This document shows, piece after piece, positions 51,612 through 53,383 of a stretch of 64,000 nucleotides of DNA. The notes beneath the pieces were generated by a model. That model searched no databases. It saw only the letters and a list, made by a program, of their open reading frames with translations, and was not told the DNA's origin. How positions within the stretch are numbered: position 1 is the stretch's first letter; each line of letters starts with the position of its first letter. Source of the stretch: Solibacteraceae bacterium (GTDB lineage: Bacteria; Acidobacteriota; Terriglobia; Bryobacterales; Bryobacteraceae); the NCBI GenBank assembly GCA_026984795.1, contig JALSRK010000027.1, positions 1 to 64,000 on the forward strand, written 5' to 3'. The position numbers and the translations under genes are program-made.

Positions 51612-52148
51612 TCAGTCCTTCCCCTGGATCAACTGCGACCGGCAGCGCTGCGCCTCTTCGTCGATGATCTTGAACTCCGCCTCCTTCTGCGCCACCAGTT
51701 GCACCAGGTAGTCCTGCAGCGCCTGGGCGTACGGCCCCACCTCGTTCAGCACCCCTTCGAGCAGGTCCGCCATCGCCGGGTTCTGGTACCGCCGCACCCC
51801 CTCGATCATCGACCGCATCATCGACTCCACCGTCTGCATCCGCAGGAACGCCTCGAGCGCCTTCGTCATCCGCCCCGGGTCCGCCGCCAGCTCGCCGAGC
51901 GTGCGTTTCAGGTAGCCGATCTGCTTCTCCAGATCCTCCAACTGCTTCGCGTAGGCGTCGGCCGAGTGCTTCCACTCCTGCGGGTTCACCTTCTCGAGCA
52001 GCGGCTCGAACCGGCCGAGCTGATCCGACAGCTCCCGGCACATCGTCTTCACGTCCCAGACCGGCTGCACACCCTCCGGGGTGGGGTCTTGCGCTTGCAG
52101 AACGCGGGCGCCCAGCCCGATCAAAACCAGAACCGCGGCAAACCTCAT
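51612..52148 (-). CDS. Exported helical protein of unknown function (178 aa)
   Basis: I do not recognise the family. From the ATG at 52148 a signal peptide (about residues 1-22, ending LQAQ) is followed by almost entirely helical, charged sequence with coiled-coil-like stretches (AYAKQLEDLEKQIGYLKRTLGEL, VLNEVGPYAQALQDYLVQLVAQKEAEFKIIDEEAQ) and one Cys near each end. It lies 55 bases downstream of the selenoprotein gene on the same strand, so it may be a periplasmic chaperone or partner. The open frame to 52499 overlaps the selenoprotein and is an artefact. Confidence 0.65.
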   Translation of the reverse strand: MRFAAVLVLIGLGARVLQAQDPTPEGVQPVWDVKTMCRELSDQLGRFEPLLEKVNPQEWKHSADAYAKQLEDLEKQIGYLKRTLGELAADPGRMTKALEAFLRMQTVESMMRSMIEGVRRYQNPAMADLLEGVLNEVGPYAQALQDYLVQLVAQKEAEFKIIDEEAQRCRSQLIQGKD

Positions 52149-52203: not shown

Positions 52204-53259
52204 TCACTTCTCGAGATCCTCCACCGCGAAACTCCACTCCAGCGGCAGCGTCTGGGGCGGATAGCACATCTTGTCGTCGCAGGCCTGGTAGCGGAACGAG
52301 CCCTTGACGGTGATCCTCCCATCCCGGACCACCGGCGCCAGCTCGGTCCTCTGCCCGAAGACCACGTCCCGCGTGAGCCGGAACGTCCCCTCGAACACCG
52401 GCAACGTCTCGTCGATCGCCTCCAGGTGCAGCGTCCGCGACTCCGGATACCCGGCCGCGAGCGCCACCCAGGCCCCGGTTTGTGGAATCTCCCAGGCAAC
52501 GGGGATGTAGCCGCCCGCGACGCCCGGCGCGTAGACGTGCATCTTCGGTTTCAGTTCCACTTTCAGAACAAGCGTGATGCGGCTGCCCGGATGCACCACG
52601 GCGTCGCTCGCCGAAGCCGTCAGTTTCAGGTGCTTCGTCTCGACAGTCTTCACCGCCCGCCCGGCGTCGTCCCGGAAGTAGCGCACCAGGATGCTCGACG
52701 CGGTATACCGCTCCCGGTGGTCCTCCTCGAAGAACTTCGCCCGGACCACGCCGTTCTCGTCGATGATGTACGTCCCGGGAAACGGAATGCCGTAGGCTTT
52801 GCTCTTCCGTGGGATGTTGGTGTTCAGAATACCGAAGGCGCGGATCACCTCCGACTCCGGATCGGACAGCAGCGGGTACGTAATCCCCTTCCGTTCCGCG
52901 AACGCCCGGATGGTTTCCACCGGATCGTACATCAACGCGGCCACCCGCAGGCCCCGCTTCTCGAAATCACTCCGGCGCTGTTCCAGCTCCACGAGCTGGG
53001 TCTTGCAGTACGGTCACCAGTCGGCCGACCGCACGAACATGAGGACAAGCCCGCGCGGCCCCCTGAGGTCTTCGAAGCTGCGCCGCCGCCCGTGCTGGTC
53101 CACGGCCTGGAAGGCAGGGATCTTTTCGCCGATCGCCGGGCCGGTCTTGACGCCCTCGTCGGTCTTGGGCAACGCGTGCAGCCGCGGCCGCGACTGTGCC
53201 CACGCCAGTCCAGCGGCCAACGCGGCCGCCGCCCAGAAAACAATCCAGTCCGTTCTCAT
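52204..53259 (-). CDS. Probable selenoprotein: redoxin with UxxC site fused to DsbD-alpha-like domain (351 aa with Sec82)
   Basis: A single reading frame from ATG 53259 to 52204 is interrupted only by TGA at 53016-53014. The flanking sequence reads FVRSADW-TGA-PYCKTQL, i.e. the thioredoxin-like W-C-x-x-C site with the first Cys replaced by UGA (Sec82) and Cys85 as resolver. A perfect hairpin follows (see 52983-53016). The protein has a signal peptide (residues 1-22, ending AWAQ), an AhpC/TSA-redoxin domain (about 40-190; GITYPLLSDPESEVIRAFG, FPGTYIIDENGVVRA), and a C-terminal domain like DsbD-alpha (about 205-345) with YQACDDKMCYPP (Cys327, Cys332). Inferred role: periplasmic thiol-peroxide or disulfide relay. 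AGGAG lies just upstream of the ATG. A routine caller would give two short genes. selA/B/C/D are not in this window. Confidence 0.82.
52983..53016 (-). promoter_or_regulatory. Bacterial SECIS-like hairpin at the in-frame UGA
   Basis: The UGA occupies 53016-53014. After 14 bases, CCAGCUC (52999-52993) pairs perfectly with GAGCUGG (52989-52983) around the 3-base loop GUG. The distance UGA to loop is 21 bases and the loop begins with G; both satisfy the published bacterial SECIS pattern (loop 16-37 bases away, G in the first two loop positions) as I recall it. It also encodes TQLVEL in frame. Confidence 0.72.
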
Positions 53260-53383
53260 CTGCTCCTGGTCCCTCCGGACACAGACCCACCGGAATCGGC
53301 GGCTGCCAGTTTACACTTTCGTTCCCGGACGGCTTTCGGTTACGCTCCCAGCGTCCAGGTCCGTCCGCCAGCCGTTCCGGGGG

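Follow-up and report, generated by a model that had tools for sequence, protein, structure and literature searches.

What does a TGA codon mean when it stands in place of an active-site cysteine codon in a redoxin-like gene, and what might the protein do if the codon is read through? The question is raised by a frame on the minus strand of the Solibacteraceae bacterium DNA analyzed here (the window, 64,000 nucleotides) that runs from 53259 to 52204. Direct translation gives 351 residues plus a terminal TGA, and the sole internal stop is a TGA at 53016-53014 (residue 82), in the context RSADW-U-PYCKTQLVELE, where it replaces the first Cys of a WCPYC motif. The initial annotation had described the locus in this way, as one frame open except for this codon, and had expected standard gene calling to yield two pieces; table 11 translation does split the gene into ORFs of 81 and 262 amino acids, and the 81-residue piece alone has no Pfam match at E≤0.001. 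By eye, a possible ribosome-binding site, AGGAG (53263..53267, minus strand), lies 3 nt upstream of the ATG, and a GGAGGG is located farther upstream. The first codons (53194..53259, minus strand) encode a likely signal peptide, recognized by eye as a hydrophobic N-terminus ending in AWA-Q, within which the AlphaFold2 model has a helix at residues 5-22, and so the protein is likely to be periplasmic or secreted.

The two ORFs are what table 11 would give if TGA82 were a real stop and the locus a pseudogene or two separate proteins, and against this stand the selenium machinery of the source genome, the conservation of the codon and an RNA hairpin beside it, as follows. The source assembly (5.23 Mb, 77 contigs) contains the four components of selenocysteine (Sec) synthesis and insertion that the initial annotation had proposed looking for (selA, selB, selC and selD): a tRNA-Sec with anticodon TCA that scores 79.1 bits (two more loci are narrowly over the cut-off of 47, at 49.2 and 47.4 bits), and SelA, SelB and SelD at 511.5, 373 and 372.2 bits, respectively, each the sole match over its curated cut-off. 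The SelD gene has its own in-frame TGA, read as Sec in AGUASK (L125 1501-2421, minus strand), so SelD is likewise a selenoprotein and the source cell has a second TGA-interrupted gene of this kind.

Relatives of the protein are present in 99 of 237 genomes of the same family (E≤1e-25); by a count over the listed match rows, 84 of these genomes have a match that holds one TGA, 10 have a match without a stop across codon 82 and 5 have a match that does not cover codon 82. This search gave 118 match rows, codon 82 was read in 90 of them, and the eight of the 10 no-stop genomes that were read all have TGC or TGT there. A phylum-wide sample of 396 genomes, the source genome included, gave relatives at E≤1e-50 in 29 genomes and TGA-bearing relatives in 24 (15 families), and the 24 loci from it that were newly read at codon 82 comprise 23 with TGA and one with TGC. 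The titled relatives are from Bryobacterales, Bryobacteraceae, Candidatus Solibacter, other Terriglobia and unclassified Acidobacteria. When these genes are pooled without redundancy (repeated identical segments were omitted, as were alignments with scores <450, most of them from Proteobacteria with the redoxin only or from loci with the C-domain only), TGA at residue 82 is the sole stop within the aligned region of 111 distinct genes, including that of the window, and 25 distinct relatives have TGC or TGT at this codon. Thus the Cys-for-Sec homologues that the initial annotation had anticipated do exist, and the relatives do not end at the TGA, which would have spoken for a stop, but retain it and continue beyond. 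Global reassignment of TGA in the source genome was rejected, as the gene itself ends in TGA, and decoding as Trp was rejected, as the relatives have Cys at codon 82.

The Sec and Cys states change eight times on the tree (built, like the first hairpin survey and the synonymous reshuffling below, from 113 genes, without 23 that were added later). At E≤1e-60, 75 of the 84 TGA genomes have SelB, compared with four of the 10 no-stop genomes (Fisher p 0.0009, kinship ignored). A laxer search of the nine TGA genomes without SelB at that threshold found split or partial SelB-like pieces in three (G090, G100 and G011) and none in the other six, five of which are <90% complete and one of which, G206, is 97% complete; G206 and the SelB-bearing Cys genomes speak against a strict rule connecting SelB and Sec. 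Several individual loci deserve mention. L060 and L192 are Cys versions with a nearly intact SECIS sequence (CAG CTC GTG GAG ATG), possibly the result of a recent Sec-to-Cys change. A contig titled as a Bifidobacterium breve MAG (L081), probably a mislabelled bin, bears an acidobacterial-type fusion gene with Cys. In genus g23 the TGA gene lies within open frames of 867, 902 and 832 residues (genomes G091, G092 and G084, respectively), which may encode longer fusions, and G551 has a second copy (G551:C209:828-1775) with an internal TGA and a TAA that is perhaps decaying.

Is there a signal in the RNA that could direct Sec insertion? The published bacterial SECIS (bSECIS) model, as given in PMC13188914, calls for a loop of 3-9 nt with G at loop position 1 or 2, a stem of 4-16 bp and a distance of 16-37 nt from the UGA. 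The window hairpin CCAGCUC-GUG-GAGCUGG (52983..52999, minus strand) fits this model in all of these respects, with 7 bp, a 3-nt loop that starts with G and a loop position 21 nt after the UGA. Its folding energy has z values of -1.18 in 51 nt and -0.28 in 61 nt, the fold in 81 nt has z +1.36 with a minimum-energy structure that differs from the hairpin, and 38% of synonymous reshuffles of the window gene reach 6 bp. On its own the window hairpin is weak and unexceptional, and the case for a SECIS stands on the family. There, 108 of 111 Sec genes have a hairpin of at least 6 bp downstream of codon 82, compared with two of the 25 genes with Cys (Fisher p 1e-20, kinship ignored). Compared with synonymous reshuffling, 85 such hairpins were observed and 24.2 expected among 88 Sec genes, and two were observed and 4.0 expected among the 25 Cys genes.

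The stem pairs the third base of a Gln codon (CAA or CAG) with the first base of a Leu codon (TTG/TTA or CTG), both synonymous sites, and they are matched in 108 of the 111 Sec genes (42 A-U and 66 G-C); the pair is broken (mixed) in three of the 111, and three of the 111 are without a 6-bp hairpin. On a tree built with these residues masked, the Gln and Leu sites each change 19 times, and well supported branches provide 11 independent pairs, in nine of which they changed together and in none apart (median p 0.004); as a control, the unpaired third base of a Lys codon has no significant link to either stem site (median p 1 and 0.625). The loop types CGUGG and GGUCG likewise switch as units (about 11 together and 0 apart, of 13), and in three genes (L166, L169 and L170) a stem C-G pair has become U-A (TTG with GAA). 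Among genes in which a Glu has become Gln, three (L204, L207 and L214) preserve the closing pair through a matching change in the base opposite and three others have lost it, and so it is not strictly required. With the Sec machinery in the genome, TGA at codon 82 in 111 genes and a bSECIS with synonymous covariation, the hidden selenoprotein proposed in the initial annotation has held up well: judged from sequence, the gene almost certainly encodes a selenoprotein, and the chance that TGA82 is a real stop is very slight.

The above observations argue strongly that the codon is read as Sec (Sec82, 53014..53016, minus strand, the first position of a UxxC motif, placed by translation and homologue alignment), and what kind of redoxin carries it? 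The 351-residue translation with U read as C (P0001) matches the AhpC-TSA Pfam family (PF00578) with 113.9 bits over residues 43-174 (52738..53133, minus strand). The full-length AlphaFold2 model made from the family alignment has pLDDT 89.5 and pTM 0.83, and the best folds for its redoxin half are peroxiredoxins (Bcp, AhpE and Prx), although a ResA-type chain is also within the Foldseek top 50. In profile alignment UPYC lies on the CPHC of the ResA chain 3c71, and with the Pfam match this bears out the UxxC redoxin of the initial annotation. Cys85 (53005..53007, minus strand), the likely resolving partner of Sec82, is kept in 136/136 genes (111/111 with Sec and 25/25 with Cys).

These same comparisons bear on the possibility that the protein is mainly a ResA/TlpA/CcmG-like reductase of protein disulfides and not a peroxidase. 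Besides the UPYC/CPHC correspondence, that assignment draws on the absence of the canonical peroxiredoxin motif PxxxT/SxxC: in alignment with the Bcp-type peroxiredoxin 2cx3 (PAAFSPVC), the corresponding residues are RSADWUPYC, so that Arg occupies the Pro position, Sec82 that of the Ser and Cys85 that of the Cys. P161 is nearly invariant among the relatives and would fit a thioredoxin cis-Pro, and E. coli nDsbD, the N-terminal domain of DsbD, to which the C-terminal half of our protein is similar (below), reduces CcmG and DsbC. On the other side are the peroxiredoxin best folds and the precedent of GPx, whose peroxidatic site is likewise a Sec at the first position. We consider a mainly disulfide-reducing role a serious contender whose chances fall a little short of even. 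By analogy, the likeliest working of the enzyme is thioredoxin-like, and of the candidate substrates a peroxide appears to have a slight edge over a protein disulfide, because the protein combines Sec with a peroxiredoxin-like fold.

The C-terminal half was described in the initial annotation as DsbD-alpha-like, and this was borne out. P0001 matches DsbD_N (PF11412) with 32.2 bits against a cut-off of 25 over residues 222-337 (52249..52596, minus strand). Modelled alone, the C-domain has pLDDT 92.4 and pTM 0.86, and its only three PDB fold matches at E≤0.001, 3pfu and 1vrs_B among them, are the ScsB N-terminal domain, reduced nDsbD and the nDsbD-cDsbD complex; the fold scores are modest (TM 0.46-0.60 of query, 12-17% identity), and a profile of the C-domain gave no match to PDB sequences even at E≤1. 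The Cys327-x4-Cys332 pair of this domain (52264..52281, minus strand), which lies in YQACDDKMCYPP, is kept in 132/132 genes that cover it (108/108 with Sec and 24/24 with Cys). Like the DsbD and ScsB N-domains, the protein has DsbD_N above cut-off, the fold and a Cys pair that precedes a YPP motif; it differs from them in its Cx4C spacing, shared with the source genome's own DsbD, and in its lack of membrane and gamma domains (there is no DsbD_TM Pfam match in the chain). The sole DsbD_TM match in the source genome (E≤0.001) is on a different contig, and the genome encodes a single full-length DsbD, composed of DsbD_N, DsbD_TM and Thioredoxin_7.

Could the nDsbD-like domain be a structural or docking module that does not reduce Sec82, with the redoxin recycled by other thioredoxin-like proteins? 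Cys relatives with RSADWCPYCK in Hyphomonas, Colwellia and Aliikangiella, whose match is confined to the redoxin part, are in keeping with such an arrangement. The retention of Cys327 and Cys332 in every Sec gene that covers them argues against it, as does a second locus of the source genome (L187, C51 about 60.2 kb) at which an AhpC-TSA/TlpA-like ORF with WCGPC (609-1517) overlaps an ORF for a stand-alone nDsbD (1408-1896; YQACTDKLCLPP), a two-gene form that supports a functional link between the two domains. We regard a purely structural or docking role as unlikely, and a selenoprotein working together with a DsbD-type relay, whatever its substrate, as quite probable.

In such a relay, UGA82 would be decoded as Sec by SelA, SelB, SelC and SelD, directed by the bSECIS just downstream, and the putative signal peptide would take the selenoprotein out of the cytoplasm. 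There Sec82 of the Prx-like/ResA-like domain would be the nucleophile that attacks the oxidised substrate, and a Sec82-Cys85 selenenylsulfide would form next, with Cys85 resolving. The initial annotation had electrons passing from this bond to Cys327/Cys332, a direction that is probably reversed: the N-terminal domain of DsbD is an electron donor, and by this precedent the Cys327/Cys332 dithiol should reduce the oxidised Sec82-Cys85 pair, presumably within the same chain. Its description of the relay as self-contained is doubtful as well, since a chain without membrane or gamma domains needs an outside electron donor; the nDsbD-like dithiol would be recharged from the cytoplasm, probably through the full-length DsbD.

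How does this protein relate to known systems? Selenoproteins with UxxC redoxin and Prx-like domains, and selenoproteins of Acidobacteria, are already on record (PMC13188914, PMC9312934, PMC1794560), and four acidobacterial selenoproteins of three families were counted in PMC1794560. The list in PMC13188914 includes a "Prx-like thiol:disulfide oxidoreductase" (PF00578, UxxC) and a "Redoxin family protein" (PF08534, UxxC), which are like the protein studied here in being bacterial and in having the redoxin fold with Sec first in UxxC; judged by their descriptions there they are set apart, in that an nDsbD fusion is not mentioned for them. The same review table lists the rhodanese/DsbD fusion-like selenoprotein TsoB (NF045694), also a selenoprotein with a DsbD-like part, which differs in its rhodanese and UxxxxU motif (PMC13188914). 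NF045694 is not among the NCBIfam matches of P0001 at E≤0.01, and no NCBIfam model reaches its own cut-off with P0001: the best match, to SelL-related redox proteins (NF040769), which share the redoxin domain, reaches 54.3 of the 120 bits required, and the ResA model 48.5 of 170 bits. The ResA/TlpA/CcmG oxidoreductases, with an active site that aligns in their ResA chains and the same type of donor, differ in having Cys where Sec stands here and in lacking the fused donor domain. The GOS paper describes other Prx-like selenoprotein fusions, one of them with an unnamed CxxC domain (Prx-like 3/Unknown_3), and by those descriptions the redoxin-nDsbD family may overlap with them (PMC2398784). No description of a redoxin-nDsbD fusion selenoprotein was found in searches of the open-licence PMC literature.

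The genes around the locus give no hint of the substrate. The window neighbors (four gcv genes, the downstream gene, an amidase, a deaminase and mazG) were found at 0 of 105 other loci by tblastn (E≤1e-8; loci L017-L122, flanks of 1.5-6 kb or shorter, some of the 105 being only distant relatives), and a conserved operon was rejected on this basis. An all-against-all comparison of flanking ORFs gave small clusters only, the largest of seven loci and ABC-F-like by eye, and several of these are copies from one genome. The downstream gene (51615-52148, minus strand) encodes 178 amino acids that look secreted by eye and have no Pfam match. A PHROGs search gave no match, a plasmid search gave 139 records with partial matches, none of which covers 80% of the query, an Rfam scan of the window gave none at gathering score, and promoter and terminator scans gave 0 and 1 sites, respectively, not above shuffles.

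A self-reducing periplasmic Sec redoxin with its own DsbD-type donor, through which it would connect directly to the DsbD membrane electron pathway, as a largely unannotated, phylum-wide family of Acidobacteriota envelope selenoperoxidases, is the boldest reading of these data, and we put it forward tentatively, as a possibility that we would not yet favor. The redox enzyme, which a standard gene caller would split, is found again and again across one phylum (TGA-bearing relatives in 84/237 genomes of the same family and 24/396 of the phylum sample). Such an enzyme would link selenium use to the periplasmic DsbD electron pathway within one polypeptide. The family further offers over 100 naturally occurring SECIS variants within a single coding frame, and these many variants, together with the repeated switches between Sec and Cys, make SECIS recognition and the loss of Sec directly testable.
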